Of a stretch of 64,000 nucleotides of DNA, positions 26,972 to 44,504 are shown in pieces. A program made the translations under genes and the position numbers. This DNA is from Pigmentiphaga sp. NML080357 (lineage in GTDB: Bacteria > Pseudomonadota > Gammaproteobacteria > Burkholderiales > Burkholderiaceae_B). Location of the stretch: contig NZ_NINW01000029.1 in assembly GCF_002188465.1 (NCBI RefSeq), positions 62,001 through 126,000 on the forward strand, given 5' to 3'. The notes under the pieces are model-generated. The model did no database searches. It saw only the letters and a list, made by a program, of their open reading frames with translations, and was not told where the DNA came from. Every line of letters begins with the position of its first letter. The stretch's first letter is position 1.

Positions 26972-27100
26972 AGCCCCTCCGGCGTATGCGGCCATGCGGA
27001 CGCTTCGCGGGACATCGGCCACGAGCCGTGCCGGCGAGGCGGGACGGCGGGATGCGCCAGGCTGTTCGCGCTGGCGCGATCCGCCGCCGCATTGTAGTCC

Positions 27101-28117: not shown

Positions 28118-29115
28118 GATTGCACCTCCGCGGGTTCTGCCGCAGCCGGGCTGGCGGCGCCGACGGCCTCGTCCAGGACGGCGGTCCAGTCGCGCACGAA
28201 CCGGTCGATGCCGAAGCGCTGCAAGGCGCGCAGGCGGGCTTCCTGTCCCCAGGCGCGAGCCAGCTCGGGATCGGCCAGCAGCTCGTGCATGACGTCGGCC
28301 AGATGGTCGATCCGCGTGTCGACATAGCCGTTCGCGCCGCTTTCGATCACCGTGCTCATTTCCGTGGTCGCGAGGCCCACCACCGGCACGCCGGCCATCA
28401 TGGCCTCGATCACGGCCAACCCAAGGCTGGTGTAGCGGATGGGATTGAAGAAGAATCGGTAGCGCGCCATGAGCGCGGGCAGCTCCAGATTCGGTACCTC
28501 GCCGATGCCGCCCAGCGATTCGGCGTCCATCCCGGCCAGATCGAGCGGCACGCGCGTGCGCAGGGCGTCGAAAACATCGGCGCCGAGACGCCGGCCGCGT
28601 CGCCGCAGGTGGTTGACCACGACGATGCCGCGCGGAATCGTGCCCTGGTACTCCACGTCGGGCGGCAGCCGCACGCCATGCTCGACGACGCGCGTGGGCG
28701 TGCAGCCGCTGTCCCACATGAGGGCATTGAACGGCGTGACATGGACCAGGGTGCCTCGCGGCTCCTGGAACCAGTGGACGGTGTTGGTGGGATGCTGCTG
28801 CGGAGGATCGTGTTCGAGATAGATTTGCGGCAACTGGCGTTGCGCCGCCGACAGCAGCTCGGTGCGGTCTTCCAGGTAGGCCTGCTTGGACTGGTACAGC
28901 ACGCAGTCGAAGCGCTGGTCGCGCACGCGATCGGCGGGAATTTCGCGGACGTTGCGCCCCCAGGGCAGGCCGGGACCCAGGGGCGCATAGCCGGGACCGC
29001 CGCCCGGCCGCACGACGACGTAGAAGTCATGCGGAACGTGAGTCAGGTAGTAGAGATAGTTGCCGTGTACGTGCCAGGTCAGAATGCGCAACCGGCGTCC
29101 GGGGGTTTCAGGCAT
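28114..29115 (-). CDS. Glycosyltransferase (GT4-like)
   Basis: 333-residue GT-B protein. The N-terminal half [26 protein letters not shown] and [19 protein letters not shown] is typical of a small group of glycosyltransferases in exopolysaccharide regions; the C-terminal EX7E-like segment is [21 protein letters not shown] near residue 225. Shorter than many GT4 enzymes because the acceptor domain is compact. Overlaps the GT9 gene upstream by 8 bp and the UDP-xylose synthase gene downstream by 4 bp, so it is translated within one coupled operon. It may be the enzyme that uses UDP-xylose, judged from position only. Confidence 0.85.
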
Positions 29116-30193
29116 AGCTGGGCTCCTTGCAAAGCATGCGTTCGGCTTGGCGGATAACGTCCGAGGTCTTGACTCCCAGCGCGCAGGGATGACCGATCGG
29201 GCACGCCGGGTGGGCGCAAGGCCGGCAGGCGACGTCGTGCCAGAGGACCACGTGCTTCGAGCGGTCGGCGGGCGCCCATCGATGCACGTCGCTGCCGCTG
29301 GCGATCACCACGCTGGGAGTGCGCATTGCCGCCGCCACGTGCGAGACGCCGGTGTCGTTGCAGACCAGCAGGCGGCTGCGCTCGAGCAGCGCGGCCAGGA
29401 CGCCCAGGCCGGTGCGTCCGGCCAGGTCGCACAGCGGCTCGCTTGCCAGGTCGGCCACCTTGCGCGTCAGCGGACGTTCTTCGTCGCTGCCGGTCAAGGC
29501 CACGTCGAAGCCGGCGTGGACGAGGACGGACGCCACCGCGGCATAGCGCTCCGCTGGCCACCGGCGCGAGGCGAGCCGCGCGCCGGGATGCACGAGGACC
29601 GTGCGGCCGGGGCGCAATCCTGCTTCCCGTGCGAGGGCGGATGCGGCCTCGCGGTCGCCGTCGGCGAGCGGAAATTCGAGCCGGGCGTCGCCGCACGGCA
29701 CGTCCAGGAATCGCATGAGCGCCAGATAGCGTTCGACTTCGGGCAGATGGTCCGGCCATGGCAGCCACCAGGCGTCGGCCTCGGCCCCCGTGACCGGTCC
29801 TGGCTGGAAACCGGCGACGCGTGCCGCCCCCAGCCTGCGCACGATGTCGTTCGTGATGGCGCCGCTGCCATGCAGTTGCAGCGCGACGTCGAAGCGCTGG
29901 GATCGCGCCCAGTCGTAGAACGCCGGCAGCGCTTCCTCGCGAGCGGCCTGTTCGGGCATGCCTGTCGTACCCGGAAACGGCGCCAGTGCGTCGAGGTACC
30001 GGCTGAAGCGCTGCTGGAACGACGCGGCGCCGGGCAGCCCGATCAAGGTGATGTGGGCGCGCGGGAAGCGTGCGCGCAATGCGCGCAGGGCGGGAACCGA
30101 ACACAGAAGGTCGCCTAGTTGCAACGCCCTGAACACGGCGATGCGGGCAGGCTCCGGGTGCCAGAGCGGGTGGAGCGCGGAGGGGGCGGTCAT
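29108..30193 (-). CDS. Glycosyltransferase family 9 protein (heptosyltransferase-like)
   Basis: 361-residue GT9 enzyme of the ADP-heptose:LPS heptosyltransferase family. N-terminus IAVFRALQLGDLLCSVPALRAL contains the conserved GDLL loop; the donor site shows VHPGARLASRRWPAERY near residue 195 and CNDTGVSHVAAAMRTPSVVI near residue 265. A late cysteine-rich stretch (CRPCAHPACPIGHPC near residue 320) is common in this subgroup. Together with the second GT9 (32938) and a GmhB-like phosphatase it implies use of ADP-heptose or a similar donor. Overlaps both neighbours in the operon. Confidence 0.9.
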   Translation of the reverse strand: MTAPSALHPLWHPEPARIAVFRALQLGDLLCSVPALRALRARFPRAHITLIGLPGAASFQQRFSRYLDALAPFPGTTGMPEQAAREEALPAFYDWARSQRFDVALQLHGSGAITNDIVRRLGAARVAGFQPGPVTGAEADAWWLPWPDHLPEVERYLALMRFLDVPCGDARLEFPLADGDREAASALAREAGLRPGRTVLVHPGARLASRRWPAERYAAVASVLVHAGFDVALTGSDEERPLTRKVADLASEPLCDLAGRTGLGVLAALLERSRLLVCNDTGVSHVAAAMRTPSVVIASGSDVHRWAPADRSKHVVLWHDVACRPCAHPACPIGHPCALGVKTSDVIRQAERMLCKEPSYA

Positions 30194-31179
30194 AGGAACC
30201 TCGCCTTGAAGTGCCAGGCGCCTCGCAGGCGCCAGAACAGGGACAAGGGGGGGATCAGGATGGAAGTCACCAGCATTTCGGCGACATGCGAAGGGGCGTG
30301 CGACGCGCCCCGCAACCGCGCGGCGCAGAACTGCAGCGTCAGCGCCGCCCAGACGGCAAGCCCCGTCCAGGCCAGCCATGGCACGCCCGCGACGGCCCCG
30401 GCGACGGCGACCGCGGCGCCGGCGACGATGGCGAAGTAGTTCCATGGCGGCCGGCGCCGTATCCGCTGGCGATACAGCGAAGGATGCTTCTTGTAGAGCA
30501 ATGCGTCGAAGAAGACCTTGCGCTGCTGCCTGACGCTGATCCCCGGCGGCGCGGGGCGCACTGGATGCAGGACGACCGCGTCTTCCGCCCGGGCGATGCG
30601 ATAGCCCCGCGCCAGAAGCATGAACTGCAGGTCCGAATCTTCTCGCCACGCCAGCGTGAAGCGTTCGTCGAAACCGCCGACGGCAAGAAGCGCGCTCTTG
30701 CGGACCAGGCAGTTGGCGGTGGCGAATTCGGCTTGTTCCAGGCCGCCGGTATCCCGTTCGTGATCACGCGGCCTGTCGGGCAGCGGCACGCGTATCCGGC
30801 CGACGACGGCGGCAACGTCGTCGGCCATGGCGGCCAGTCCTCGCGACAGCCAGGAGGGCGTCGGCACGGTATCGTCGTCGGTAAAGGCAATAACGGGCGC
30901 GCGCGCGCTTTCCCATCCGCGGTTGCGCGCGCCCGAAGGCCCCTGGGTGCCCACCGCTTCCAGATAGCGCACCGCCAGTCCGCGCCGCTCCTGTTCCTTG
31001 GCGAGCGCCTCCACCACCCGGCGCGTATCCGCATCGGGGCCGTCGTCCACCACCAGCAGCTCGAAGCTCGCCGGGTCGAGATCCTGCGAGGCGATCGCCT
31101 GCAGGCAGCGCTGCAGCATCCGTGGCCGGCGGTAAGTGGGAACCACCACCGACACCCGCAGGAGGCCGGCGGCGCTCAC
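30190..31179 (-). CDS. Glycosyltransferase family 2 protein, membrane-attached
   Basis: 329-residue inverting GT-A enzyme. The catalytic domain has VSVVVPTYRRPRMLQRCL, LLVVDDGPD, FTDDDTVP (DXD) near residue 95, and EFATANCLVRKSALLAVGGFDE with WREDSDLQ (the ED base) near residue 170. Two hydrophobic C-terminal segments (YFAIVAGAAVAVAGAVAG and LAWTGLAVWAALTLQF, residues about 255-290) should anchor it in the inner membrane. It starts at a GTG (31177-31179) that overlaps the carbamoyltransferase stop (GTGA). Sugar specificity not readable. Confidence 0.9.
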   Translation of the reverse strand: MSAAGLLRVSVVVPTYRRPRMLQRCLQAIASQDLDPASFELLVVDDGPDADTRRVVEALAKEQERRGLAVRYLEAVGTQGPSGARNRGWESARAPVIAFTDDDTVPTPSWLSRGLAAMADDVAAVVGRIRVPLPDRPRDHERDTGGLEQAEFATANCLVRKSALLAVGGFDERFTLAWREDSDLQFMLLARGYRIARAEDAVVLHPVRPAPPGISVRQQRKVFFDALLYKKHPSLYRQRIRRRPPWNYFAIVAGAAVAVAGAVAGVPWLAWTGLAVWAALTLQFCAARLRGASHAPSHVAEMLVTSILIPPLSLFWRLRGAWHFKARFL

Positions 31180-32915
31180 GCCGACTTCTCCAGCAGGAAC
31201 GAGCCGATGGCGAGCGCGTCCAGCGGCGACGTCCAGAAGCATTCGATCGCATCGCGAGGCGTGCATACGACAGGTTCGCCGCGCGTGTTGAACGACGTGT
31301 TCACCAGTACCGGCACGCCGGTGCGACGTTCGAACGCCGCCAGCAGGTCGTAGTAGAGCGGATGCTGGGCGCGCCGCACGGTCTGCACGCGGGCGGTGCC
31401 GTCCGTATGGCGGACGGCAGGTATGCGCGCGGCCTTGTCCTCCAGCACGTCGAAGACGAACAGCATGAACGGCGCGACGATGGGGCCGGGCCGGCCGGTG
31501 GCGAACCAGTCGCGCGCGCGTTCCTCCATGACCACCGGTGCGACCGGGCGGAAATCTTCCCGGTCCTTGATTTCGTTGAGGCGGGCCTGCATGCCGGGGT
31601 CGATGGGAGAGGCCAGGATGGAACGCGCGCCGAGCGCCCGCGGACCGAATTCCATGCGTCCCTGGAACCATCCGACGATCTTGTCCTGGGCAAGCAATTC
31701 CGCGGTGGCCTCGGCAATGTCGTCCGGCTTGCGATAGGAGAGCTTGGAGCGTTGCAGGAAAGCCTCGATCTCCTCGTCATCGAATTCCGGACCAAGGAAA
31801 GCGTGGTCCATGGCCCATCGCCGGCCCTCGCCGGCTCGCTGCTGGCTGTCCACCCAGAGCGCGGCGCCCAGCGAGGTGCCGGAGTCCCCGGCCGCGGGTT
31901 GCACCCACACCTGGCTGAACGGCCCGTTTTCGCGCAGCCGCGCGTTCATGACGCAATTGAGCGCCACGCCGCCGGCCATGCACAGGTTGGGCGATCCGGT
32001 TTCCCGGTGCAGCCAGCGCGCCATGCGCTCGACTGTCTGCTCGAGGGCGAATTGCAGCGAACGGGCGAGGTCGTAGTGGCGTTCCTCGAGCGGTCCGCCG
32101 CGCCGCCGTGGCGGACCGAACCGTTCGGCGAGCGCAAGCGGGGAAACCGTGTAGTCGCCGTCGTCGCCCACGCGCATGATTTCTTCGAAGAAGTCGACGT
32201 AGCGTGGTTGGCCGAACGACGCCAGCGCCATGACCTTGTATTCGTCAGAGGAATGCAGGAAACCCAGGTAACGCGTGACCTCCTCGTACAGCAGGCCCAG
32301 CGAATGCGGCAGGTTGACCTGCTTGATGCGCCGGTATCGCCCCTGCGCGTAATGGCCGTAGCTGGTGGTGGCGCTCTCGCCGCGTCCGTCCATGGTCAAT
32401 ACCGCCGCCTCGTCGAACGGCGCTGCCAGGAAGGCGCTGGCCTCGTGGGCGAGGTGATGCTCGACGAAGTGCCAGCGCCGGATGATGTCGGCCGCGGTGG
32501 CGCCGCGCAGCCGCTCCTGGAGGTGGTGGGGCGCGCCGTCGGCAAGTTGCCGCGGCGCGTTCACCACATACGAGAGGAACAGCGGATCCCAGGGCGAGGA
32601 CGTGGCGGTAGGGCTGCTGCTGCGCGAGGGCTCCAGCGGCAGCACGATGTGGCCTTCCGGAGCTTGTTCCTGCAACAGCAGGCTCGGGTCGTAGGAATAG
32701 GCGAAATGATCGACCTGGCCGATGTCGATTCCCGCATGGGCAAGACAGTAGTCGATCGCATGGAACGGCAACTGCCAGGTCGTGAACGGCAGCGGGCGCT
32801 TGCCGTGCTTGACGTGGGTGAAGCGCTCTTCTTCCGCTGCCGCCAGCACCACGCCATCGCGTACGAGGGTGGCGGAACAGTCGTGGTAAACGGCATTGAT
32901 TCCCAATGTGTACAT
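31176..32915 (-). CDS. Carbamoyltransferase (NodU/CmcH/WapO family)
   Basis: 579-residue enzyme that transfers a carbamoyl group from carbamoyl phosphate, through carbamoyl-adenylate, to a hydroxyl. The N-terminal Kae1-like domain has LGINAVYHDCSATLVRDG, AAEEERFTHVKHGK and HHLAHEASAFLAAPFDEAAVLTMDGRGE near residue 155 (metal-binding histidines). Then EYKVMALASFG, MAGGVALNCVMNARL near residue 315, and the C-terminal MEFGPRALGARSILASP, DREDFRPVAPVV and PVLVNTSFNTRGEPVV. GAGGAG precedes the ATG at 32915. Homologues decorate Nod factors, antibiotics and LPS core heptose. With two GT9 genes beside it, carbamoylation of a heptose is a reasonable guess. Confidence 0.95.
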   Translation of the reverse strand: MYTLGINAVYHDCSATLVRDGVVLAAAEEERFTHVKHGKRPLPFTTWQLPFHAIDYCLAHAGIDIGQVDHFAYSYDPSLLLQEQAPEGHIVLPLEPSRSSSPTATSSPWDPLFLSYVVNAPRQLADGAPHHLQERLRGATAADIIRRWHFVEHHLAHEASAFLAAPFDEAAVLTMDGRGESATTSYGHYAQGRYRRIKQVNLPHSLGLLYEEVTRYLGFLHSSDEYKVMALASFGQPRYVDFFEEIMRVGDDGDYTVSPLALAERFGPPRRRGGPLEERHYDLARSLQFALEQTVERMARWLHRETGSPNLCMAGGVALNCVMNARLRENGPFSQVWVQPAAGDSGTSLGAALWVDSQQRAGEGRRWAMDHAFLGPEFDDEEIEAFLQRSKLSYRKPDDIAEATAELLAQDKIVGWFQGRMEFGPRALGARSILASPIDPGMQARLNEIKDREDFRPVAPVVMEERARDWFATGRPGPIVAPFMLFVFDVLEDKAARIPAVRHTDGTARVQTVRRAQHPLYYDLLAAFERRTGVPVLVNTSFNTRGEPVVCTPRDAIECFWTSPLDALAIGSFLLEKSA

Positions 32916-32937
32916 GGACAGCTCCTCGATGTGGGGC

Positions 32938-34128
32938 TCAGGCGGCGGCCCGCCGGCTCGTGGGGGATGCGGGCAGCGGCATGCGGCGGCGCATGTCCAG
33001 CAGCTCCTGTGCGGCCCGCACGGCCCTTTCCGGCTCGACTCCGGCCAGGCAGGCATGGTGGCCTTCCGGGCACACGCTGCGATAGCAGTACTTGCACGGC
33101 ACGTCATGGCTGAGCAGGCGGTGTTCGATCCCCCAGGGCGCGTGCTGGGGATTGGTCAGCGCATAGAGATCGGCCACCGGCGTGCCGACCGCGGCGGCGA
33201 TGTGGACCGGTCCGCTGTTGTTCGAGACCAGGACCGCCGCTTCGGCAAGCAGTGCGCCCAGCTCGCCCAGCGAGAGTTCGCCCGCGGTATTGATCGCCCG
33301 GTGTCCCGACAGTGTGTCCACATGTTCGACCAGCGCCCGCTCGCCGCTGCCGCCGGTAAGCACGACGGGGGCGGTGGCGGCCAGCTGCCGGACGACCTGC
33401 GCGAACAGTTCGGGGGGGTAGCGCCGGGATGGCGCGCTGGCGCCGGCATGCACAACGATGCAGGAACCGAGGTCCCTGACGCCCCGCCGAGCCAGTTTCT
33501 CTTGCACGGCCCGGCGATCCCGCGGCTGCACCGCGAACTCCAGCGTCTCGGTCGGCGCACGCGCACCGACCGAGGCCACCAGGTCCAGCTGGCGCCGGGC
33601 CTCGTGGCGGCCGCCGTCCATGGGCGCGTCGTCCTTGATCCAGTGGGTAAGGAGGCGATAGGGGTTCTCGCGGGAGTGGGCCAGAATGCGCGGGATGCCC
33701 GCCAGCATGCACATCAGGGCGGCGGGCAGCGCGCTCTGGCTGTAGACCGTGAAAATGGCTGCCGCGTCGTAGCGGCCTGCTCGCAGCCGTTCGATCATCG
33801 CCAGATCGGGACCCGGGTCGGGCCCGCGATGATTCTTCACCCAGGGCGCCTCGTAGGCGATGACCTCATCCACGCTGGGCAGATGCGGGGCAAGCAGCGC
33901 GCCCGCGCCCGAGCACAGCAGGGTGATGCGCCGCCCTGGCCGCGACAGCTTCAGCGCACGCAGGGCGGGAGTCGTCATCAACACGTCGCCCAGGTTGTCC
34001 AGCCGCACGCAAAGAACATTGGACGCGCCGGACCAATCGAGAGCGCTCGCTGCTGTTGCCTCCTGTCGCTGCGCATTCTCCCCGAGGGAGGGAACGCGCC
34101 CTTCGGGCGGCCGAGCGGGCGCGTTCAT
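32938..34128 (-). CDS. Glycosyltransferase family 9 protein (heptosyltransferase-like)
   Basis: 396-residue GT9 protein. VLCVRLDNLGDVLMTTPALRAL near residue 40 carries the GD loop; VHAGASAPSRRYPPELF near residue 230 and VSNNSGPVHIAAAVGTPVADLYA near residue 305 form the donor site. The C-terminal cysteine cluster (CKYCYRSVCPEGHHAC) mirrors that of the other GT9 here. The first 30 residues are extra and low in complexity, so translation could begin further in. Its start overlaps the GmhB-like gene by ATGA, linking heptose precursor processing to transfer. Confidence 0.9.
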   Translation of the reverse strand: MNAPARPPEGRVPSLGENAQRQEATAASALDWSGASNVLCVRLDNLGDVLMTTPALRALKLSRPGRRITLLCSGAGALLAPHLPSVDEVIAYEAPWVKNHRGPDPGPDLAMIERLRAGRYDAAAIFTVYSQSALPAALMCMLAGIPRILAHSRENPYRLLTHWIKDDAPMDGGRHEARRQLDLVASVGARAPTETLEFAVQPRDRRAVQEKLARRGVRDLGSCIVVHAGASAPSRRYPPELFAQVVRQLAATAPVVLTGGSGERALVEHVDTLSGHRAINTAGELSLGELGALLAEAAVLVSNNSGPVHIAAAVGTPVADLYALTNPQHAPWGIEHRLLSHDVPCKYCYRSVCPEGHHACLAGVEPERAVRAAQELLDMRRRMPLPASPTSRRAAA

Positions 34129-34706
34129 GCGACCTCCCTGGCGCGCAGCGCCACCGCCACGAGCGTGGCGGCCTGCTCGAAGCCGTCGACGATGTAGTCC
34201 GGCTCGCGGTGCGGGCCGCGCACCCATTCGGTCTCGTGGCCGTTGTTCAGCAAGACGGTGCGGCAGCCTGCGCGGCTGCCCGCTTCCACGTCGTCGAGGA
34301 TGTCGCCGATGAACCACGAGCGTTCCAGGTCCAGGTCGTGCTCGCGGGCGGCCTGGCGCAACAGTCCCGGCTGCGGCTTGCGGCAGGTGCACGGCAAGGC
34401 GTAGGCGCGGCGTACGCCCCTGGCCAGGTGCGGACAGTAGTAGAAGCCGTTCAGGTGCGCATGGGCTGTCTCGAACATGCGGGCGAGCTGGAGGTGCACG
34501 CCGATCAGCGCATCTTCCTCGAACAGGCCCAGGGCGACGCCCGGCTGGTTGGTGATGACGAACATCGGCGCCCTGGTGCCGGCAAGGCGCCGCAATCCAG
34601 CCTCCACGCCGGCCTCGAAGCGCATGCGTTTCGGGTCCACGTTATAGGCTTCGTTCACCAGCAGGGTGCCGTCCTTGTCCAGGAAAATGGCAGGTTTCAG
34701 GGCCAT
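34125..34706 (-). CDS. gmhB: HAD-IIIA phosphatase, GmhB-like (heptose-bisphosphate phosphatase)
   Basis: 193-residue haloacid-dehalogenase hydrolase. Motif I is FLDKDGTLL at residues 8-16 with both aspartates; motif II is in VITNQPGVA near residue 52; the zinc loop CPHLARG...CTCRKPQPG near residues 90-115 has the Cys-His-Cys-Cys pattern of GmhB; motif IV is FIGDILDDVEAG near residue 130. GmhB removes the 7-phosphate from heptose 1,7-bisphosphate during ADP-heptose synthesis. No gmhA, hldE or hldD is in this window, so it may serve a dedicated branch or back up a chromosomal copy. Overlaps the SDR gene upstream by 10 bp and the GT9 gene downstream by 4 bp. Confidence 0.88.
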   Translation of the reverse strand: MALKPAIFLDKDGTLLVNEAYNVDPKRMRFEAGVEAGLRRLAGTRAPMFVITNQPGVALGLFEEDALIGVHLQLARMFETAHAHLNGFYYCPHLARGVRRAYALPCTCRKPQPGLLRQAAREHDLDLERSWFIGDILDDVEAGSRAGCRTVLLNNGHETEWVRGPHREPDYIVDGFEQAATLVAVALRAREVA

Positions 34707-35428
34707 GATGTTTCTCGCATCGGCAGCACCATGACCTCCGGAATCACGGTCTCTTCGGGCTGCATCAGCACGAAGCGCACGGTGCGGGCGACATTGCCGG
34801 GGTCCTGCAGGGTGTTTACGTCGATGTCGGCGAAGCGATCGAGCAGGAACGGCGTGCGCATGCCGCCTGCGACGACCGCGGAGACCTTGATCCCGTGGGG
34901 CCTCAGTTCGGCATGCAGCGCATGCGAGAGCCCCAGCAGGCCCCACTTGGTGGCGTGGTAGACCGCGGCGTTGGGCCATGCGCGCTTGGAAGCCGTCGAG
35001 GCGATGTTGACGATGTGTCCGTGACCCCGCTCCTTCATGTAGGCGCATGCGTACTTGGAGACCAGGAACGGTCCGGTCAGGTTGGTCCGCAGGATGCGGT
35101 CCCAGTCCGCCAGCCCCAGTTCCTCGATGGGGACGGTCAGGTCGATGGCCGCGTTGTTGACCACGGCATCGAGATGGCCGAAGCGGGAGATTGCCCGGTC
35201 CACCGCGGCCCGCACGTCGCTTTCGTTGCCGACGTCAAAGCCTATGGCGTCGGTGTGCGCGCCGATGCGGCGCGCCGTGGCATGGGCCGCCTGTTCGTCG
35301 ATGTCGCCGACCAGCACGTGCGCGCCATCGGCTGCCAGCTCCTGGCAGATGGCAGCGCCCAGGCCGCGGCCTCCTCCCGTAACCAATATCGTCTTGCCTG
35401 CCATGCTGGCGGGTGCTCTGGATGTCAT
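34697..35428 (-). CDS. SDR-family oxidoreductase
   Basis: 243-residue classical short-chain dehydrogenase. TGGGRGLGAAIC near residue 17, VGDIDEQ after the second strand (acidic, NAD preference), NNAAIDLTVP near residue 90, catalytic serine in NIASTASKRA and YHATK near residue 155. The usual PG motif after the active site is replaced by AVVAGGMRTPF. Probably oxidises or reduces a sugar or sugar-nucleotide intermediate of the cluster. First gene of the strictly overlapping set; it lies 18 bp after the glycosyltransferase at 35447. Confidence 0.9.
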   Translation of the reverse strand: MTSRAPASMAGKTILVTGGGRGLGAAICQELAADGAHVLVGDIDEQAAHATARRIGAHTDAIGFDVGNESDVRAAVDRAISRFGHLDAVVNNAAIDLTVPIEELGLADWDRILRTNLTGPFLVSKYACAYMKERGHGHIVNIASTASKRAWPNAAVYHATKWGLLGLSHALHAELRPHGIKVSAVVAGGMRTPFLLDRFADIDVNTLQDPGNVARTVRFVLMQPEETVIPEVMVLPMRETSWP

Positions 35429-35446: not shown

Positions 35447-36739
35447 CTACTTGGCGGCGAGCGCTTCTTCGGCCGTGCGCTCGTAGTGGCTGCGCCGGGA
35501 AGCCATCGCCGGTTGGGCCAGGCCCGCATAGGCCCGCAACATGTCGCGGGCGACGCCGCTCCAGGTGAACATCTTCTGCGCGCGGCGCAGGCCATTGCGG
35601 CCCAGGCGCTGCGCGGTCTGTGCGTGCGTGGCGAGATAGGCCAGGCGGTCGGCCAGGGCTTCGGGATCGCGCGGCGGCACCAGATAGCCGGTCTTGCCGT
35701 CCACCACCGTCGAGCGTATGCCCCCCACCGCCGCGCCTATGACGGGACGCGCGCAGGCCATGGCCTCCACGGGCGTAATGCCGAACGGCTCGTACCAGGG
35801 CGTCGTCACGAATACGTCGCAGGCTCCATAGAACAGCGAGAGCTGCTCGCGGTCGCGCCGTCCGCAGAATTCGACCGTGTCGGCTACCCCGGCCTGCGCG
35901 GCGATATCGCGGAGCCTGCCCAGCTCCGGCGTGGAGAGGTCGTCGGGCTTGGATGCGTCGCCGCCCACGACGTAGAGCTTGGCATCCACGCCGTGGCGGC
36001 GGCGCAAGACGCCGAGTGCCTGGATCACGTTGTCCACGCCCTTGCGCGGTACCATGCGGCCCAGTTGCAGCACGGAGAAGCGTTCGGGATCCCATCCAAG
36101 CGCCAGCCGCGCCGCGGTCTTGTCCATGGGCGTGAATTCCTGCGCTTCGAAGCCGCACGGAATGATGTCGATCTTGGCGGGGTCGGCGCCGTAGTGCTCG
36201 ACCAGGTCCTCCAGGTCCTGGGGGCATTCGGCGATCAGTTTCTCGGCACGGCGCACCAGTTCGAGCTCGATGGCGTAGCGTTCGGCCGGAAAGCGGTCGG
36301 CGCTGCCCTGGTGCTGGCGCCGCACGCGGTCGAGCGCGTGGAAGGTCATGACCAGCGGCACGCCGAACTCGCGCGTCGCGGGCAGGCAGGCCAGCCCCGA
36401 CATGAAGAAATTGGCGTGGACGATGTCGTAGATCGGCCAGTTGTTGCGGAAGTAGTTCAGCAGGAACTCGCCGAACTGCCCCATGTAGGGCAGCAGCGAT
36501 TCCTTGGGAATGGGCCGTGCGGGACCGGCCGGCACGTGGATGACGCGTATGCCCGGCTGCCAGGCAAGGGTCCTGGGTTGCGAAGGGTCGTCCTGGCGCG
36601 TGAAGACGTCGACCCGGTGGCCCTGGGCGGCGAGTTCCCGCGCCAGGTTGGCGACGTAGATGTTCTGTCCTCCGCTGTCCACGCTGCCAGGCGGGGCGAG
36701 CGGAGACGCGTGTTCACTGACGAGGGCGATGGTGCGCAT
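35447..36739 (-). CDS. Glycosyltransferase family 4 protein (MshA/sucrose-phosphate-synthase-like)
   Basis: 430-residue GT-B enzyme. The N-terminal SVDSGGQNIYVANLARELAAQGHRVDVFTR is the loop of the MshA/sucrose-phosphate synthase branch. Donor-domain motifs are QLGRMVPRKGVDNVIQAL near residue 230, the PWYEPFGITPVEAMACARPVIG EX7E segment near residue 325, and TGYLVPPRDPEALADRL. An AAGGGA Shine-Dalgarno precedes the ATG at 36739; an upstream GTG at 36766 is an alternative. Unusually long for the cluster and probably uses a hexose or GDP/UDP sugar. First gene of the operon that runs to the UDP-xylose synthase; the promoter should lie in the 143 bp upstream. Confidence 0.88.
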   Translation of the reverse strand: MRTIALVSEHASPLAPPGSVDSGGQNIYVANLARELAAQGHRVDVFTRQDDPSQPRTLAWQPGIRVIHVPAGPARPIPKESLLPYMGQFGEFLLNYFRNNWPIYDIVHANFFMSGLACLPATREFGVPLVMTFHALDRVRRQHQGSADRFPAERYAIELELVRRAEKLIAECPQDLEDLVEHYGADPAKIDIIPCGFEAQEFTPMDKTAARLALGWDPERFSVLQLGRMVPRKGVDNVIQALGVLRRRHGVDAKLYVVGGDASKPDDLSTPELGRLRDIAAQAGVADTVEFCGRRDREQLSLFYGACDVFVTTPWYEPFGITPVEAMACARPVIGAAVGGIRSTVVDGKTGYLVPPRDPEALADRLAYLATHAQTAQRLGRNGLRRAQKMFTWSGVARDMLRAYAGLAQPAMASRRSHYERTAEEALAAK

Positions 36740-36799
36740 GGTGAGATCCCTTTTGTTGATCAGCACAACAACTGGGATCCGATCCGCATCTTCTGTTCC

Positions 36800-36882: not shown

Positions 36883-37404
36883 TTACAGCGTCAGGCCGCG
36901 GGTCTCGGTTTGGGCTCGTCCTTTGACGATGGCCTTGAGGCAGGCCGCCACGGTCATCGCGAAAGCCTCGTCGTACCAAGGATGTGCGCCGCTGGACGCC
37001 ACGACGTAACCGTCGAGGCACGCCGTCCCCCATAGGGTCGAGTCGTTTTTCTGCAGAAGTTGCGGGTATGCGGTCTGGACGAGGTGGCTGTCCAGGCCCG
37101 TGCGCCAGCTCAAGTAGGCCTTGCCGCGCGCGAACGCCGCATAGTCGGCATCCCAGTGCTGCGGGTCGCCCACGGCGTACTCGTAGAGGATGGCTTCTTC
37201 GAACTGGTCGCGGGCGGGAGAACTGGCGGGATCCATGATCACGAGGTAGAGAAACCCGCTTTCGCCCACCCGCTCCTTGTCCTGCATCGCGGCTTCGATC
37301 AGTGGCAAGGCCATGCGGACAGCCTGGGCGGCGGCCTGCCTGTCGGCATAGAAGCTCGGCGCGGATATCGTCGGTGACGAGGCGAGGAAGGGATTGGTGT
37401 TCAT
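36883..37404 (-). CDS. Conserved-looking hypothetical protein, possibly GlcG/HbpS-like
   Basis: 173-residue soluble protein, no signal peptide or transmembrane segment. AGGAG lies 6 bp before the ATG at 37404, so the gene is convincing. I do not recognise it firmly. The order of features (an early helix FYADRQAAAQAVRMALPLIEAA, a central ARGKAYLSWRTG helix, then GTACLDGYVVASSGAHPWYDEAFAMTVAACLKAI) resembles the GlcG/HbpS fold, a small alpha/beta protein that in Streptomyces binds haem and senses redox state. The resemblance is by eye and weak. It lies 33 bp after the ABC-receiver fusion on the same strand, so it is probably co-expressed with it. Confidence 0.7.
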   Translation of the reverse strand: MNTNPFLASSPTISAPSFYADRQAAAQAVRMALPLIEAAMQDKERVGESGFLYLVIMDPASSPARDQFEEAILYEYAVGDPQHWDADYAAFARGKAYLSWRTGLDSHLVQTAYPQLLQKNDSTLWGTACLDGYVVASSGAHPWYDEAFAMTVAACLKAIVKGRAQTETRGLTL

Positions 37405-37437: not shown

Positions 37438-40179
37438 TCATGCGGCCGGACCGGCGGTAGGCGGCTGGTCGGAGGACCGGGGCCGGCGGGCATCGCGGGC
37501 CAGCGTCGCCACGGTGGCGGCCAGCTCGGCGGGTTCCACCGGCTTGCCAAGGTGGACCTGGAAGCCGGCCAGCAGCGCGCGCATGCGGTCCATGGGCTGG
37601 GTCCGTCCGGTCAGGGCCACGGCCGGCATGAGATCCGGAAGCGCCGTCGACCGGCGCGATTCCATGCTGCGTATTTCCTGCAGCACCTGGTGGCCGTCCT
37701 CCTCGCCCAGCGAAAGGTCGCACAGCAGCACGTCGGGCCATTGCTCCGAAGGGGTGCGGTCCAGGTATTCGAGGGCGGCCTTGCCCGAGTTCATCGGCAG
37801 CACTTGCGCCTGGTAGGTCTCCAGTACCGCGCCGATCTGCTCCAGAACATCGGCCTGGTCGTCGATCACCATGACCCGTATGCCGGCCAGCGACACCGCG
37901 GAACCGCCCGCGCGGTCATGTCCCGCCGGGACTTCCGAGGCGACGGCGCGCAGCGGCAGGCTCAGGACGCGGGTTTCGCCCCTGCCCGTGGACGGCACGC
38001 GGGTGAGCAGCTTGCCGCCCTGTCCTTCGACCAGCGCCCTGATGTGCATGGGATCGAAGACCGTCGAGCCGTCGCCCAAGAGAGGAGCCGGCGTGGCGCC
38101 GTACTCCATCGCCACAATGGCTTCGTCGTCGCGTCCGTCGGTAATGGACAGCAGCGCGTTGCCCTCGACCGCGTCCAGCCGGAGTTCCATGCGCCCGCCT
38201 GGCGGGCTGACCGCGATGGCGTTCATGCAGAGCTCGGATACCACCTGTTGCAGGGTACTGGGATCGCCGGTGACCCGGTATGCCTGCGAGCCCATGAAGG
38301 TGTAGAGCTCGATGGAGCGCTCTTCGATGAGCGGCCGCAGGCCATCGAGCACGCCGGCTACCAGCGCCACCATGTTGACCGGTTGCTTGCTGAGCTTGCG
38401 GCTGGTGCGCTCCAGCTCGCTCTGCTTGAGCTGCAGGTTCCACATCTGGGCGTACATGCCCTGGCTGGCAAGCAGCGATTCGTGGGTGCCGCGTTCGACG
38501 ATGCGGCCCTGGTCAAGCACCAGGATCTCGTCGGCGTCCACGACGGTGGAAAGCCGGTGCGCAATGATGAGGGTGGTCCGGTCGCGCGACAGTTGCGCCA
38601 GCTCGGCCTGGATCGCGCGTTCGGCCAGCGTGTCGAGTGCGGAGGTGGCTTCGTCGAAGATGAGAATGGGCGGGTTCTTCAGGATCGCCCGCGCGATGGC
38701 GATGCGCTGGCGTTCGCCTCCCGAGAGCTTGACTCCGCGCTCGCCCACCATCGTCTCGTATTGGGCGGGCAAGGCGTTGATGAACTCATGGATGCGCGCG
38801 GCGCGGGCCGCCTCGATGATCTCCGCCATCGGGGCGCCCGGACGGCCGTAGGCGATGTTGTAGGCGACGGTTTCGTTGAACAGCGCGGTGTCCTGGGGCA
38901 CCATGCCGATGTTCGCCCGCAGGCTTTTCTGGTCGACGGCGCTCAGGGCCTGTCCGTCGATGGTGATGCGGCCGTCGTCGGGGTCGTAGAAGCGGAACAG
39001 CAGGCGAGCCAGCGTGGATTTGCCCGAGCCGCTGCCGCCGACGACGGCGACCGTCGCGCCCGGAGCGATGCGGAAATCCACGTCCCACAGGATCTGCCGG
39101 CCCGGCTCGTAGCTGAAATCGACCGATTCGAACCGGACCTCGCCGCGCGACAGGTCCAGCGGCGCCATCGTGTGCCTTTCGTCTATCTCCGGCGGCGTGT
39201 CGAGCAGCGAGAACAGCCGTTCGGCGTTGATGACCGCGTCCTTGGACTGGCGGAAGATCATCCCCAGCGTGTTGAGCGGCAGGCTGATCTGGATGATGTA
39301 GGCATTGACCAGAACCAGGCTGCCCACCGTCATCTGGCCCAGCACCACTTCGCGTCCCGCCAGCAGCATGACCGCCGCGACGCCCATGGCGATGATGGCG
39401 CTTTGCCCCACGTGCAGGACGGACAACGCCTGCTGGTTGGCCACGCCGGCCTCGCGCCATCGCTGCAGCAGCTTGCGGAACCGCACCAGCTCGTAGTGCT
39501 CGTTGGTGTAGAACTTCACGGTTTCGTAGTTGAGCAGGGTGTCGACGAGCCGGCCGCTGGTGGCCGAGTCGGCGGCGTTCATCGCTCGCTGCAGCGCCGC
39601 CCGCCGCTCCGTCAGGGCGAAGGTGAAAATGCCATAGCCGAGCAGCGCCAGCACGACGATGACGGTGAACCAGATGTCATAGCCGACCGCCAGCACGCCG
39701 GCCACGACCGCGATCTCGAATATCGTGGGAACCACGGTGAACAGCGTGGTGCCGAGCAGGAAAGTCAAGCCAGCGGCGCCGCGTTCCACGTCGCGCGCCA
39801 GCGAACCGGTCTGCCGCGTGACGTGGAAGCGTGGACCGAGCTTATGCAGGTGCGCGAACGTCCGCTCGTTGAAGTCCGCCACGACCTTGTGCAGGACCGG
39901 GGAGAACACCACGTCGCGCAGCTCGTTGAACAGCGTCCCGAGAAAGCGCAGCAAGGCGTAGGCGAGGAGCAGGAACACGGGGACCACCAGCGCGCTCGTT
40001 GGCTCGCCCAGTTCGTCCACGATGACCTTCAGCACCATCGGCACGGCCACCATGACCAGCTTGGCGAGAATGAGCAGCCCCAGGGCCGTGAACACGCGCC
40101 GACGGGCCTCCCATATGGGCGGGCCCAGCGTGCGTGCGAGTTGTCGGCTGATGGGCATGGCGCCCTGGTCTCTGGCCAT
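37438..40179 (-). CDS. ATM1-type ABC exporter fused to a histidine-kinase-like ATPase domain and a receiver domain
   Basis: 913-residue single chain. Residues about 20-330 are the six-helix ABC exporter membrane domain of ATM1/HMT1 type (HLHKLGPRFHVTRQTGSLARDVERG, LLNYETVKFYTNEHYE). The nucleotide-binding domain has Walker A GGSGSGKST near residue 380, LSGGERQR near 485 and ILIFDEATSALD near 506. Normal exporters stop near residue 600. Here it continues into a histidine-kinase ATPase-like domain (GDPSTLQQVVSELCMNAIAVSPPGG, N box near 650; SITDGRDD, G1) with a poor G2 box, and then a complete receiver: IDDQ near 768, the phospho-acceptor in LLCDLSLG near 817, ALTGRT and HLGKPV. No phospho-accepting His domain is present. 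GAGGAG lies 10 bp before the ATG at 40179. ATM1 relatives export glutathione or metal-thiol compounds, so this may be a signal-gated exporter. Confidence 0.93.
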   Translation of the reverse strand: MARDQGAMPISRQLARTLGPPIWEARRRVFTALGLLILAKLVMVAVPMVLKVIVDELGEPTSALVVPVFLLLAYALLRFLGTLFNELRDVVFSPVLHKVVADFNERTFAHLHKLGPRFHVTRQTGSLARDVERGAAGLTFLLGTTLFTVVPTIFEIAVVAGVLAVGYDIWFTVIVVLALLGYGIFTFALTERRAALQRAMNAADSATSGRLVDTLLNYETVKFYTNEHYELVRFRKLLQRWREAGVANQQALSVLHVGQSAIIAMGVAAVMLLAGREVVLGQMTVGSLVLVNAYIIQISLPLNTLGMIFRQSKDAVINAERLFSLLDTPPEIDERHTMAPLDLSRGEVRFESVDFSYEPGRQILWDVDFRIAPGATVAVVGGSGSGKSTLARLLFRFYDPDDGRITIDGQALSAVDQKSLRANIGMVPQDTALFNETVAYNIAYGRPGAPMAEIIEAARAARIHEFINALPAQYETMVGERGVKLSGGERQRIAIARAILKNPPILIFDEATSALDTLAERAIQAELAQLSRDRTTLIIAHRLSTVVDADEILVLDQGRIVERGTHESLLASQGMYAQMWNLQLKQSELERTSRKLSKQPVNMVALVAGVLDGLRPLIEERSIELYTFMGSQAYRVTGDPSTLQQVVSELCMNAIAVSPPGGRMELRLDAVEGNALLSITDGRDDEAIVAMEYGATPAPLLGDGSTVFDPMHIRALVEGQGGKLLTRVPSTGRGETRVLSLPLRAVASEVPAGHDRAGGSAVSLAGIRVMVIDDQADVLEQIGAVLETYQAQVLPMNSGKAALEYLDRTPSEQWPDVLLCDLSLGEEDGHQVLQEIRSMESRRSTALPDLMPAVALTGRTQPMDRMRALLAGFQVHLGKPVEPAELAATVATLARDARRPRSSDQPPTAGPAA

Positions 40180-40273: not shown

Positions 40274-41206
40274 CTAGCGTTCGGGCGAGGAGGGCGCGGA
40301 CCGGTGACGCGGCAGCGGGGCCGGCCCGGCCCCCGGCGCAGCGCCTTCTCGCAGCATTCGGCGCATGGCCGCCACGTCGGGCGGAACCACTCGCCGCTGG
40401 AGCAGGATCCAGGGCAGGCCGCGCAGTACCGCGAGCGCCAGTGCGCCCGGGTTTTCCTTGCCGCGAACCTCGCGCATGACGCGCGCGGTCTCGCGGCAGG
40501 CCTCGGCCAGCGGCAGGCGCAGCCAGGCGGTCCAGATCTCGTTGCGGGCCAGCAGCCTCCGTCGCCCCGGCGCATCGCGCCGGGGCGACGGATAGTGCCG
40601 CGTCACGATTTCCGGACAGTAGGCGATGCGCCATCCCGCCGTCACCAGGTCCAGCGCCATCAAGGCTTCTTCGGCGCCGATGAAGAACGCCGGGTGATAG
40701 CCGCCCGTCTCCAGGAAGGCGCAGACGCGCATGATCGTGGCGCCGGCGAGGAATCCGAGCAGCACCTTGCCCGGCAAGCCCTGCGAGGGAAGAGGGCTGC
40801 TGGCCATGCGTTCGCACGCAGGATCGCGCCGCGCTTCCTCGCCCACCCGGACCTGCGCGCAAATGGCGGCCAGATCGGGATGGCGGTCCAGGATGTCGGC
40901 CGCGCGATCCAGCGCATGGGGCTGCCAGCAGGTATCGTCGTCGCAGAACGCGACGTAGGGCGTGCGCGCCCACCTCACGCCCAGGTTGCGGCCGGCGGCG
41001 CCGAGGTTGCGGCCCGCGGCGATCACGTGAATGTCCGGCCACGCTGTGCGCAGGGCATGCGGCGTGCCGTCCGCACTGCCGTTGTCCACGACGCAAAGCC
41101 GGACTCGATCGGGCAGTTCGCGCAGCTGCCGCACCGTGCGCAGGACTTCCTCGCACCTGTGGTGAGTCAGGACCACGATGGTGACGCGTGCGTCAGCGGG
41201 GTTCAT
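40274..41206 (-). CDS. Glycosyltransferase family 2 protein
   Basis: 310-residue GT-A enzyme. VTIVVLTHHRCEEVLRTVRQL, LCVVDNGSADGTP, AAGRNLGAAGRNLGVRWA and the DXD-like FCDDDTCW near residue 90 are visible. IGAEEALMALDL supplies the late acidic base near residue 185. No transmembrane segment is obvious. The start at 41206 overlaps the PIG-L deacetylase gene by 14 bp, so the two form a unit: a sugar is transferred and an N-acetyl group may be removed, or the reverse. The ABC fusion gene begins 94 bp downstream. Confidence 0.9.
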   Translation of the reverse strand: MNPADARVTIVVLTHHRCEEVLRTVRQLRELPDRVRLCVVDNGSADGTPHALRTAWPDIHVIAAGRNLGAAGRNLGVRWARTPYVAFCDDDTCWQPHALDRAADILDRHPDLAAICAQVRVGEEARRDPACERMASSPLPSQGLPGKVLLGFLAGATIMRVCAFLETGGYHPAFFIGAEEALMALDLVTAGWRIAYCPEIVTRHYPSPRRDAPGRRRLLARNEIWTAWLRLPLAEACRETARVMREVRGKENPGALALAVLRGLPWILLQRRVVPPDVAAMRRMLREGAAPGAGPAPLPRHRSAPSSPER

Positions 41207-41876
41207 ACGCTTCCAGCTTCCAGTATCGCTCGGGCAGCCCGGTATCCTCGTAGCCTCCCTCGCCGAAGGCACGCAATTGGCTCGCGTACCAGCGGACGGC
41301 GCGTTCCTTGGCCGGCGAGCGCGAGGCCGGCCCGGCGACCGGAGTCAACAGCAAGCCCGCCTGCAACAGCGCGGCCAGCCGCTTCTGCACGAGTCCCGCG
41401 TGGCGCCGGTACAGCGCGTCTTCGTAGAACAGCCAGGCGAGCGAGCCATGATCCCGATACAGCTGCATGCAGGCCGCGTGGGCGAGGAGATGGTCGGAGT
41501 GGAACAACCCCAGTGGGACCGCGACCGTGCCTCCCCGCAGCCGGCCGAAGACCGGAGCCAGATGAGCGGCCACGTCTTCCGGCAGGTAGTTGCCGCCGTA
41601 CTGGGCATCCATCAGATCCAGCCATATCGGCTCCGCGCCCAGTTCGGCCAGTGCGCGGGCATCCTCTTCCCGCCGCGTGCGCACGGCTTCGTCGGCGCTC
41701 AGGAAACCGCAGCGCCGGTCCCAGTCGGTGAGCGGGATGTCGTCGGGGCAGCCGGCGAACAGCGTGACCACCTGGCCGCGGTCCGCAAGGTCGAGCAGGG
41801 CGCCGCAGCTGAAGACGCCATCGTCCAGGTGAGGCGACACGACGGTCAGCAGGTCTACGGCATCGAGCGATTTCAT
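41193..41876 (-). CDS. PIG-L family deacetylase
   Basis: 227-residue zinc-dependent N-acetylglucosamine deacetylase-like protein (LmbE/PIG-L/BshB group). The metal site is visible: SPHLDDGVFSCG (PHxDD) near residue 14 and FHSDHLLAH near residue 125, the second histidine pair. Also RREEDARALAELGAEPIWLDLMDA. Such enzymes remove the acetyl group from GlcNAc linked to inositol, malate or a glycan. Here it lies before a GT2 gene in the glycan region, so an N-acetylated sugar intermediate is likely. It is divergent from ugd across 129 bp. Confidence 0.93.
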   Translation of the reverse strand: MKSLDAVDLLTVVSPHLDDGVFSCGALLDLADRGQVVTLFAGCPDDIPLTDWDRRCGFLSADEAVRTRREEDARALAELGAEPIWLDLMDAQYGGNYLPEDVAAHLAPVFGRLRGGTVAVPLGLFHSDHLLAHAACMQLYRDHGSLAWLFYEDALYRRHAGLVQKRLAALLQAGLLLTPVAGPASRSPAKERAVRWYASQLRAFGEGGYEDTGLPERYWKLEAYEPR

Positions 41877-42005
41877 CGGACATGGTCATGGGGACGATGG
41901 GCCCTTACCTTGCCACTGTTCGCCTGGCACAGGTGTAACGATGTTGCGCGGCGACCGGGGAATGGATCTTGCTGTGCGCATGGCGTTTCTCTCGGGAGCA
42001 AGACC

Positions 42006-43373
42006 ATGAATCTAGCCGTCATCGGCGCGGGCTATGTAGGCCTGGTCACCGCGGCCTGCCTGGCCGACGTGGGCAACAAGGTGTATTGCGTAGACAGCGA
42101 CCCTGCCAAGCTGCACCTGCTGCGCGGCGGCCACCTGCCTATCTATGAGCCGGGTCTCGACACGCTGGTCGCGCGCAACACGTCGGCCGGCCGCCTCGTG
42201 TTCACCGACGACCTGGCGCTTGCCGTGGCCGACGCCGACGCGGCCTTCGTCGCGGTCGGCACGCCGCCGCGCGAAGACGGCGCCGCGGACTTGGGCCATG
42301 TGCTGCAGGCGGCCCTGGAGGTGGCCCGCGTCGCTGCGCGCGACATGCTGGTGGTAATCAAGTCCACCGTGCCGGTGGGCACCTGCGATCGCGTCCGCGA
42401 GGTGATGGACGCCGAGCTGGCTCGCCGTGGGGCGCCCTACGAACTGCTGGTCGCCTCCAATCCCGAGTTCCTGAAGGAAGGACACGCCATCGACGACTTC
42501 CAGCGGCCGGACCGCATCGTCATCGGCACCTCAGACGAACACGCCTGCGCGCTGCTGCGCGCGCTGTACGCTCCCTACAACCGCAATCGCGACCGGCTCA
42601 TCTGCATGGACGTTCGCTCGGCGGAGTTCACCAAATATGCGTCCAATGCGATGCTGGCCGCCCGGATATCGCTCATGAACGAACTGGCGGGCCTGGCCGA
42701 ACGTGTCGACGCCGACATCGAGGCGGTGCGGCGCGGAACGGGCGCGGATCCCCGCATCGGCTACGACTTCCTGTACGCCGGCGCGGGCTATGGCGGCTCG
42801 TGCCTGCCCAAGGACGTGCGCGCACTGGTCCGGCTGGCCGAGGAGTACGGCGCGCCGGCCGACATACTGAACAGCGTGCAGGCGGTCAACATGAGGCAGC
42901 GGGCCGTGCTCTACGAGAAGCTCGAGCGTTTTTTCCACGGGCGGCTGGCGGGGCGCACCATCGCGGTCTGGGGGCTGGCCTTCAAGCCCGCCACCGACGA
43001 CATACGAGAGGCGCCCGCCATCGACTTGATCGGCCGCCTGCTTCGGGCCGGGGCGCTCGTGCGGGGCTACGATCCCGTGGCCGCCGCCAATGCGCTGCGC
43101 GCGCTGCGCCACGATGGCTTTTCGATCGCGGATGATGCCTATTCCGCCTGCGAAGGCGCCGACGCGCTGGTCGTCATGACCGAGTGGCGGGAATTCAAGT
43201 CGCCGGATTTCCGCGGCCTGGCGCAGGCCCTGCGGGCGCGCGCCGTGTTCGACGCGCGCAATATCTACGATCCCGGATACGTGGAGGCATGCGGATTGCG
43301 CTACGAAGGCGTCGGGCGCACCGGGTCTTCCTCGGTGCGCCGTCCGGCGGCCGTCCCGGCGGCGGTCCGGTAG
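42006..43373 (+). CDS. ugd: UDP-glucose 6-dehydrogenase
   Basis: 455-residue enzyme that oxidises UDP-glucose twice with NAD to UDP-glucuronate. IGAGYVGLVTAACLADVGNKV is the NAD-binding start; VGTPPREDGAADL near residue 83; NPEFLKEGHAIDDFQRPDRIVIG near residue 157; the catalytic lysine/asparagine in EFTKYASNAMLAARIS near residue 208; and the catalytic cysteine in GGSCLPKD near residue 263. GGGAG precedes the ATG at 42006. Its product is the substrate of the UDP-xylose synthase at 27101-28117, so together they give UDP-xylose. Divergent from the PIG-L/GT2 unit, convergent with Mn-catalase. Confidence 0.96.
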   Translation: MNLAVIGAGYVGLVTAACLADVGNKVYCVDSDPAKLHLLRGGHLPIYEPGLDTLVARNTSAGRLVFTDDLALAVADADAAFVAVGTPPREDGAADLGHVLQAALEVARVAARDMLVVIKSTVPVGTCDRVREVMDAELARRGAPYELLVASNPEFLKEGHAIDDFQRPDRIVIGTSDEHACALLRALYAPYNRNRDRLICMDVRSAEFTKYASNAMLAARISLMNELAGLAERVDADIEAVRRGTGADPRIGYDFLYAGAGYGGSCLPKDVRALVRLAEEYGAPADILNSVQAVNMRQRAVLYEKLERFFHGRLAGRTIAVWGLAFKPATDDIREAPAIDLIGRLLRAGALVRGYDPVAAANALRALRHDGFSIADDAYSACEGADALVVMTEWREFKSPDFRGLAQALRARAVFDARNIYDPGYVEACGLRYEGVGRTGSSSVRRPAAVPAAVR

Positions 43374-44266: not shown

Positions 44267-44504
44267 GGAGATCTCCTTGACGAACGAGGCGTCGGTGCCG
44301 CAGGAAGCATGCCCGCGCCGGCGAAGGGCGTCCCGCCACCGGGATTTCCCTAGTGCCGGCGGGCCTTGCCCCCGGAAATACCCGCTCCAAAAACCGCTCA
44401 ACTCCTGTTCACCCTTGCCGTAAACACATACACGCCTGCCTGTGAAGGGATGTGTGCGCTCGAAACGACCGGCACGAGCCGGCAATAACGGTTTGGGGTA
44501 AGAA
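44267..44504. promoter_or_regulatory. Divergent promoter region of Mn-catalase and chemotaxis receptor
   Basis: 238-bp gap holding both promoters. It includes a short stem CCGGC-ACGA-GCCGG (44469-44482) just before the chemotaxis receptor gene. I looked for a flagellar sigma-28 site and found no convincing TAAA-N15-GCCGATAA. Confidence 0.3.

Follow-up and report, generated by a model that had tools for sequence, protein, structure and literature searches.

In the ATP-binding cassette (ABC) importers MalK and MetN, a regulatory C-terminal domain stands behind the nucleotide-binding domain (NBD) and answers to small-molecule or protein effectors; a receiver is not present there. The output domains controlled by receivers are usually DNA-binding or enzymatic. 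Transporter and two-component domains share one chain in the transceptors CbrA (SLC5-kinase) and the Amt-kinase of Kuenenia, as described in the available excerpts of the literature, and the same holds for the gene analyzed here. It lies in a stretch of 64,000 nucleotides from Pigmentiphaga sp. NML080357 (assembly GCF_002188465.1, contig NZ_NINW01000029.1, positions 62,001 to 126,000), referred to below as the window, and encodes an ABC exporter fused to a histidine-kinase-like ATPase domain and a receiver. We propose, with a probability of about 0.42, that the product is a receiver-regulated, ATM1-derived exporter with a retuned substrate pocket, serving the glycan pathway encoded around it.

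The fusion gene is a single open frame on the minus strand (40179 to 37438) encoding 913 amino acids, uninterrupted as the initial annotation of the window had stated. In the Pfam search with the window protein, the exporter part matches ABC_membrane with 113.8 bits (cut-off 28) and ABC_tran with 120.4 bits (cut-off 25), and the C-terminal end matches Response_reg with 59.9 bits (cut-off 30.2). The domain search of the C-terminal part suggested in that annotation thus returned the receiver, and HATPase_c in part: the match covers residues 638-681 and its 21.5 bits lie under the cut-off of 26.4, being backed by the alignment and the predicted fold described below. We take the NBD motifs to be Walker A at residue 381, LSGGE at 485, Walker B at 505 and the H-loop at 539, directly after the Pfam match. 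Among the 25 NCBIfam matches listed for the window protein, MsbA is at the top and none reaches its cut-off. Of the proteins with solved structures, AtAtm3 (521 bits) and NaAtm1 (497 bits) are closest to the exporter part. The AlphaFold2 model of the C-terminus, with a mean predicted local distance difference test (pLDDT) score of 88.5, resembles histidine-kinase catalytic domains plus a receiver in PDB, the top match being full-length ShkA, a hybrid kinase.

The same exporter-kinase-receiver protein is encoded in one frame at 39 loci from other genomes of the window's family (in one of them, L064, the contig ends ahead of the receiver) and at 69 of 80 loci from a second collection; since the fusion recurs in this way, an assembly artefact or a frame fusion can be rejected, and the absence of a stop between the two parts, on which the fusion claim depended, is real. 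In the family survey, residues 590-765 served as the query against 268 genomes, in each of which up to 13 candidates were scored; 40 of these genomes gave matches at 4e-25 or better, the remaining listed matches being at 2.4e-9 or worse. Two more genomes of the window's genus (G193 and G194), matched only at 1e-8 by this query, carry a more diverged fusion and were identified with the exporter query, so that 42 of the 268 family genomes carry the fusion. Of the 226 remaining genomes, 132 were additionally screened using the exporter or the entire protein as query (48, 4 and 80 genomes, scoring up to 27, 129 and 11 candidates, respectively) and yielded no further fusions; 94 were covered by residues 590-765 only.

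The second collection was obtained by scanning named genomes with an alignment of the C-terminus and comprises the best 80 of 464 relatives, so 69/80 (the frame of L119 being partial; 11 are not ABC fusions) is not a frequency. The closest relatives among these 80 belong to Pigmentiphaga. Fusions are found in Bordetella, Achromobacter, Pusillimonas, Paraburkholderia, Cupriavidus, Caballeronia, Methylibium, Rhizobacter and others, and also in Azoarcus, Solimonas soli and a metagenome genome labelled Gammaproteobacteria. In plasmid records they are annotated as 'ATP-binding cassette domain-containing protein' or 'ABC transporter transmembrane domain-containing protein'. A sample of 399 genomes of the order, searched with E up to 1e-40, contained a detected fusion in seven (30 of 38 matches were fetched and classified, and diverged fusions may escape). 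The fusion is a conserved family present in many related betaproteobacteria.

The kinase-like domain has lost its catalytic boxes. A clear N box, a clear G1 and a degraded G2 had been noted for it. Asn653 of the N box is indeed present in the window protein (though in the close alignment only 19 of the 40 sequences have this Asn) and G2 is lost altogether, together with the ATP lid, but the G1 position reads T-D-G-R in place of D-x-G-x-G and is not clear. Asp681 and Arg683 are identical in all 40 sequences of the close alignment, not throughout the wider set. Neither G1 nor G2 occurs in any of the fusions displayed (40 in the close alignment, 23 in the wider one), while six hybrid kinases in the wider alignment retain both, and the ATP lid, too, is kept by ordinary hybrid kinases there. 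The only His residues of the window protein between positions 560 and 770 are 566, 712 and 754, so none lies in the linker that joins the ABC part to the ATPase part, in agreement with the earlier statement that this linker lacks a phospho-accepting His; HisKA has no Pfam match in the window protein and is not visible in the linkers of the 23 fusions. The alignment to intact hybrid kinases and the predicted fold argue against a chance HATPase match, despite the sub-cut-off Pfam score, and support descent of this part from a histidine-kinase ATPase domain. A working kinase core is ruled out by the loss of the catalytic boxes in the alignment with hybrid kinases, and the fusion would therefore be unable to start a signal by itself.

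The receiver of the window protein has all the key residues ascribed to it, namely the acid pair 773/774, Thr857, Lys879 and the acceptor Asp, which is residue 821 and not, as had been estimated, a residue near 817. Their conservation was assessed in 87 non-redundant fusions (sequences with identical C-terminal 600 residues were dropped), 86 of which have a receiver, L064 being the exception. The acceptor Asp is kept in 86/86 receivers. The first acid is Asp in 82 and Glu in two more, the second acid is kept in 83, Lys in 83 (Arg in the other three) and Ser/Thr at 857 in 85. Since these residues are kept beside a decayed kinase, we read the pattern as selection for phosphorylation of the receiver by an outside donor, and it fits a receiver that would take phosphoryl groups from elsewhere and act on the exporter. 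One degenerate receiver that nevertheless keeps the acceptor Asp belongs to a 1628-codon open frame (L055, 9280-14163, genome G103). A stand-alone pseudokinase-receiver of this type is encoded in Solimonas aquatica (L143, 9932-10867); its locus of 20.8 kb, some 10 kb to each side, showed no ABC exporter.

The substrate pocket of the exporter was read with NaAtm1 as a ruler in 85 non-redundant fusions (filtered in the same way), of which 84 were readable, the one gap being probably L119 with its partial frame. Arg210 of NaAtm1 is replaced in 84/84 fusions (Gln in 80, Glu in three, Leu in one), Asn269 is His in 82 and remains Asn in two, and position 317, Phe or Met in ATM1, is Thr, Ala or Ser in 83 and Met in one, whereas Y195, R206, Q272, P314, G319 and R323 are kept in all 84. 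According to PMC6424863, Arg212, Arg216, Asn275 and Arg329 in Rhodobacter capsulatus are among the residues binding glutathione or its derivatives; we take them as R206, R210, N269 and R323 of NaAtm1, the shift in numbering being our own. The full glutathione-binding set of ATM1 is thus incomplete in the fusions, with R206 and R323 present in 84/84 and R210 and N269 replaced. The exporter had been called ATM1-type, which holds insofar as AtAtm3 and NaAtm1 are its nearest solved relatives; as a plain ATM1 label it goes too far, given that two residues of the glutathione pocket differ almost family-wide. Judged by its sequence, the fusion exporter is an ATM1-derived subfamily and not ATM1.

Unfused exporters have a different pocket. 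R210, N269 and Phe317 are kept in 34 of the 35 that were read: the paralogue from the own genome, 28/28 loci (of 40 unfused matches, from genomes without the fusion or beside it) and five of six further ones. The remaining unfused exporter (genome G769, L244, 7934-9892) has a Gln/His/Ser pocket, ends soon after the NBD, where the fusions continue, and sits between a glycosyltransferase family 4 (GT4) gene and more genes of the glycan cluster described below. In a FastTree phylogeny the fusions and the G769 exporter form one clade against the other unfused exporters with local support 1.0; within it the G769 exporter is placed beside L125 with local support 0.61, a placement that does not tell ancestral absence of the tail from its loss. 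As this exporter is unfused and has the altered pocket inside the cluster, the pocket change goes with the cluster, the receiver being very common but not obligatory, and the receiver looks like a regulatory add-on to the exporter.

In the window, the fusion gene belongs to a same-strand run of genes from about 41.9 to 28.1 kb (Table 1), which in order encode a PIG-L protein, a GT2, the fusion, a small protein, a GT4, a short-chain dehydrogenase (SDR), a HAD protein, a GT9, a carbamoyltransferase, a GT2, a GT9-like protein and a glycosyltransferase of group 1. Groups of neighbors were obtained by BLAST and clustering of open frames within about 10 kb per side of 70 loci (the window and 69 others); such groups may mix related families (SDR, glycosyltransferases), and short contigs score as misses. 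The layout of the cluster relative to the fusion differs between clades: it is downstream on the same strand in many Alcaligenaceae, divergent upstream in Paraburkholderia, downstream on the opposite strand in Caballeronia and upstream in Solimonas soli. The varied order and orientation thus point to a functional link rather than to inherited gene order. A core-lipopolysaccharide cluster of Pseudomonas, according to excerpts of its description, also has a PIG-L protein, a carbamoyltransferase and MsbA (PMC8005017), a likeness in the kinds of genes. The lxa (low-oxygen) locus of Burkholderia cenocepacia was considered as a known home of the cluster, and the literature passages available gave no link to it.

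The carbamoyltransferase, counted at 1e-260 or better, is present in 47 of the 268 family genomes, namely in 42/42 with the fusion versus 5/226 others. In another fifteen family genomes, none of which has the fusion, nothing closer than a weaker relative (43-48% identical, 7e-124 to 7e-117) is present. In mixed genera the two genes come together, in 7/11 genomes of g1, 6/43 of g2, 7/9 of g9 and 3/6 of g10, and the remaining genomes have neither. In several genomes (G199, G211, G126, G193) they are on different contigs or far apart. In the order sample the carbamoyltransferase is found in 7/7 fusion genomes versus 3/392 others, one of the three being G769. Two of the family genomes with the carbamoyltransferase and no detected fusion (G132 and G235) are 86% and 70% complete.

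Table 1. Coordinates of the fusion gene, its domains and neighboring genes in the window.
Feature	Position	Strand	Remarks
ABC exporter - pseudo-histidine-kinase - receiver fusion	37438..40179	-	913 aa; start ATG 40179, alternative in-frame ATG 40158
ABC exporter transmembrane domain	39277..40092	-	residues 30-301; pocket altered: Gln at NaAtm1 210, His at 269
Nucleotide-binding domain	38641..39084	-	residues 366-513
Degenerate histidine-kinase ATPase domain	37945..38382	-	residues about 600-745; without HisKA, DxGxG, G2, lid
Receiver domain	37510..37875	-	residues 769-890; D773, D774, acceptor D821, T857, K879
PIG-L family deacetylase	41193..41876	-	relatives near fusion in 26/70 loci
Glycosyltransferase family 2	40274..41272	-	relatives near fusion in 39/70 loci
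173-aa protein, predicted HbpS/GlcG-like (DUF336) fold	36883..37404	-	33 bases past exporter stop codon; relatives near fusion in 25/70 loci
Glycosyltransferase family 4	35447..36766	-	relatives in 45/70 loci
Short-chain dehydrogenase (SDR)	34697..35428	-	relatives in 31/70 loci
HAD-family phosphatase in 3' part	34125..35048 (open frame; true start probably near 34700)	-	relatives in 24/70 loci, annotated HAD / HAD-IIIA hydrolase
Glycosyltransferase family 9, heptosyltransferase type	32938..34392 (open frame)	-	relatives in 45/70 loci
Carbamoyltransferase	31176..33107 (open frame; conserved part from near 32914)	-	near fusion in 52/70 loci
Glycosyltransferase family 2 in 3' part	30190..31671 (open frame)	-	
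Glycosyltransferase, probably family 9 by relatives' annotation	29108..30649 (open frame)	-	relatives in 42/70 loci
Glycosyltransferase group 1 / family 4, probable last gene of run	28117..29115	-	relatives in 39/70 loci
Intact histidine kinase (RsbRD_N, HisKA, HATPase)	25847-27022	-	directly beyond glycan cluster
UDP-glucose dehydrogenase	41178..43373 (open frame; domains at residues 277-699)	+	opposite strand to fusion
Manganese catalase	43388-44872	-	near cluster

Relatives of the small protein encoded next to the exporter occur on either side of the fusion. The 173-aa protein itself has no Pfam match, and weak matches to HbpS-like were obtained for six of 24 aligned members (best E 2.8e-4). 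Structures similar to its model (mean pLDDT 90.1) are those of NahX, EfgA, a putative heme-binding protein, a DUF336 protein and the PduO C-terminal domain (E 7e-4 to 8e-3, TM about 0.5); our guess would be a ligand sensor or a chaperone for the exporter. Elsewhere, in Vibrio penaeicida and Rhodococcus, relatives of this protein adjoin polysaccharide-lyase or sugar-oxidation genes. Other neighbors are of the stress type: catalase, hemerythrin and ferritin-like genes stand beside the fusion in Paraburkholderia sp. D15 (L222), and hemerythrin, DUF892 and iron-permease proteins are encoded around some fusions outside the window. An AcrB-type RND efflux pump encoded in the window at 53040-56123 on the plus strand is unrelated to the fusion.

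Taking the domain architecture, its family-wide conservation, the integrity of the receiver, the decay of the kinase, the pocket change and the linkage and co-occurrence with the cluster as established by sequence comparison, the following scheme may be proposed. The exporter would be a type IV ABC exporter from the ATM1 group with a retuned substrate pocket, probably homodimeric. Gene fusion would have added to it the back half of a hybrid histidine kinase, leaving out the phospho-accepting domain, after which the ATPase domain would have decayed to a pseudokinase scaffold and the receiver stayed intact. A separate histidine kinase, a histidine phosphotransfer protein or a small phosphodonor may phosphorylate Asp821, and the two phosphorylated receivers of the dimer may then repack against the two NBDs, raising or lowering the ATPase activity and the transport rate. 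The exporter would work together with the carbamoyltransferase, glycosyltransferase and UDP-sugar genes of the cluster, exporting the product of the pathway or possibly a companion compound. Modulation of the exporter ATPase by the receiver is favored since the kinase part is unable to initiate signalling and since the receiver is located directly after the NBD, in a motor that is homodimeric by its relatives; gating of transport by phosphorylation is plausible. The wider claim, which we put forward tentatively, is that of a widespread betaproteobacterial exporter class in which two-component phosphorylation of the fused receiver would switch the pump post-translationally and so regulate the export associated with a carbamoylated glycan derived from heptose and UDP-sugar.

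Several observations weigh against the proposed scheme. The Fisher p-values of the co-occurrence, 7e-44 in the family and 4e-13 in the order sample, overstate independence because the genomes are related. In two family genomes (G048 and G177) the cluster is almost complete and the best exporter match is canonical; a third family genome (G226) contains much of the cluster, the HbpS-like protein among it, and its exporter matches are no better than 4.8e-87. Cluster genes together with a canonical best exporter match are also found in two genomes of the order sample (G689 and G852); the cluster can thus exist without the fusion exporter. The receivers of L055 and L120 lack both acids and Lys, and that of L073 lacks one acid. 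Three glutathione-contact residues of ATM1 are kept in the fusions, which is also compatible with a glutathione-like substrate. As to a possible phosphodonor, no consistently linked kinase or regulator was seen around the fusions at the 70 loci, and close relatives of the intact kinase beyond the cluster (76-77% identical) accompany the cluster in just three further genomes of the genus, the kinase being found also in two genomes without the fusion (G195 and G197). Since kinase-like genes (cluster 13) are near 13/70 fusions, about the expectation for kinase-rich genomes by a rough estimate, and the window kinase is linked within the genus only, a cognate kinase encoded in the neighborhood was rejected.

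The exporter could instead, in the way proposed for other ATM1 proteins, move a glutathione-related compound (a conjugate, a polysulfide or a metal complex), the receiver tuning it under stress and the glycan cluster being a mere neighbor in a stress-gene island. This is suggested by the closest solved relatives being ATM1 proteins, by the invariance of R206, Q272 and R323 in the fusion family and by the stress-type genes around some fusions, including the manganese catalase of the window; we consider it rather unlikely, as R210 and N269 are replaced almost family-wide, while the own genome also has a canonical paralogue with both, and as the co-occurrence with the carbamoyltransferase persists with the genes far apart. 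That the signal runs outwards, with the exporter as a sensor in the manner of transceptors and the receiver passing or soaking up phosphoryl groups in a phosphorelay onto other proteins, perhaps to affect transcription of the glycan genes, has precedents in the signalling fusions CbrA and Kuenenia Amt-kinase, so far as excerpts describe them, and near the cluster of Burkholderia multivorans there are two sigma-54-type regulators and two kinase-like proteins. The fusion cannot itself start such a signal, having no functional kinase core, and the missing family-wide linkage to a regulator or kinase also makes this explanation distinctly unlikely.

Finally, the kinase-like and receiver domains might be a structural tail, providing a dimer or scaffold contact without regulated phosphorylation. 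The middle domain without catalytic boxes, the few damaged receivers (L055, L120) and the one relative without a tail (G769) would agree with that; conservation of Asp821 in 86/86 receivers, and nearly so of the other catalytic residues, is far above that of the decayed neighboring domain, and we regard a purely structural role as very unlikely. The receiver-regulated exporter serving the glycan pathway, which we prefer over these alternatives, would be a response regulator with an ABC transporter as its output domain, and two-component systems could then set transport directly, through a receiver placed on the exporter's motor. The initial annotation did not include the glycan cluster, the change in the substrate pocket or the extension of the fusion to a whole family. 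The family ties a strongly co-occurring, uncharacterised glycan cluster to a specific subfamily of exporters whose pocket change is defined, so that the question of the substrate becomes testable, and the fused Gln/His exporters, the one unfused Gln/His exporter (G769, which offers a natural control for the effect of the receiver) and the canonical unfused paralogues, including the one from the own genome, form a clean comparison set.

Compared with known systems, the fusion shares with NaAtm1 and AtAtm3 the same half-transporter of transmembrane domain and NBD (over its residues 12-588), keeping R206, Q272 and R323, and differs from them by Gln at R210, His at N269, a changed position 317 and about 320 extra residues of pseudokinase and receiver. 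These C-terminal 310-320 residues align nearly full length with the HATPase-receiver part of hybrid histidine kinases (L127, L147, L151, L157), with which the fold also agrees; unlike those kinases, the fusion has no HisKA, phospho-accepting His, G1/G2 or lid, and has an exporter in place of the sensor. Among the matches listed in the open-licence literature (most subscription papers being outside its scope), there was no account of an ABC exporter-receiver fusion; since transporter-kinase fusions are known, the family would possibly be a new class of response-regulator output if gating is shown. As in MalK and MetN, a domain stands behind the NBD and could control ATPase activity. Transceptors, as far as the excerpts describe them, combine a transporter with a catalytically intact kinase core, whereas the fusion joins an ABC exporter to a dead kinase and an intact-looking receiver, so that the direction of information is likely reversed.

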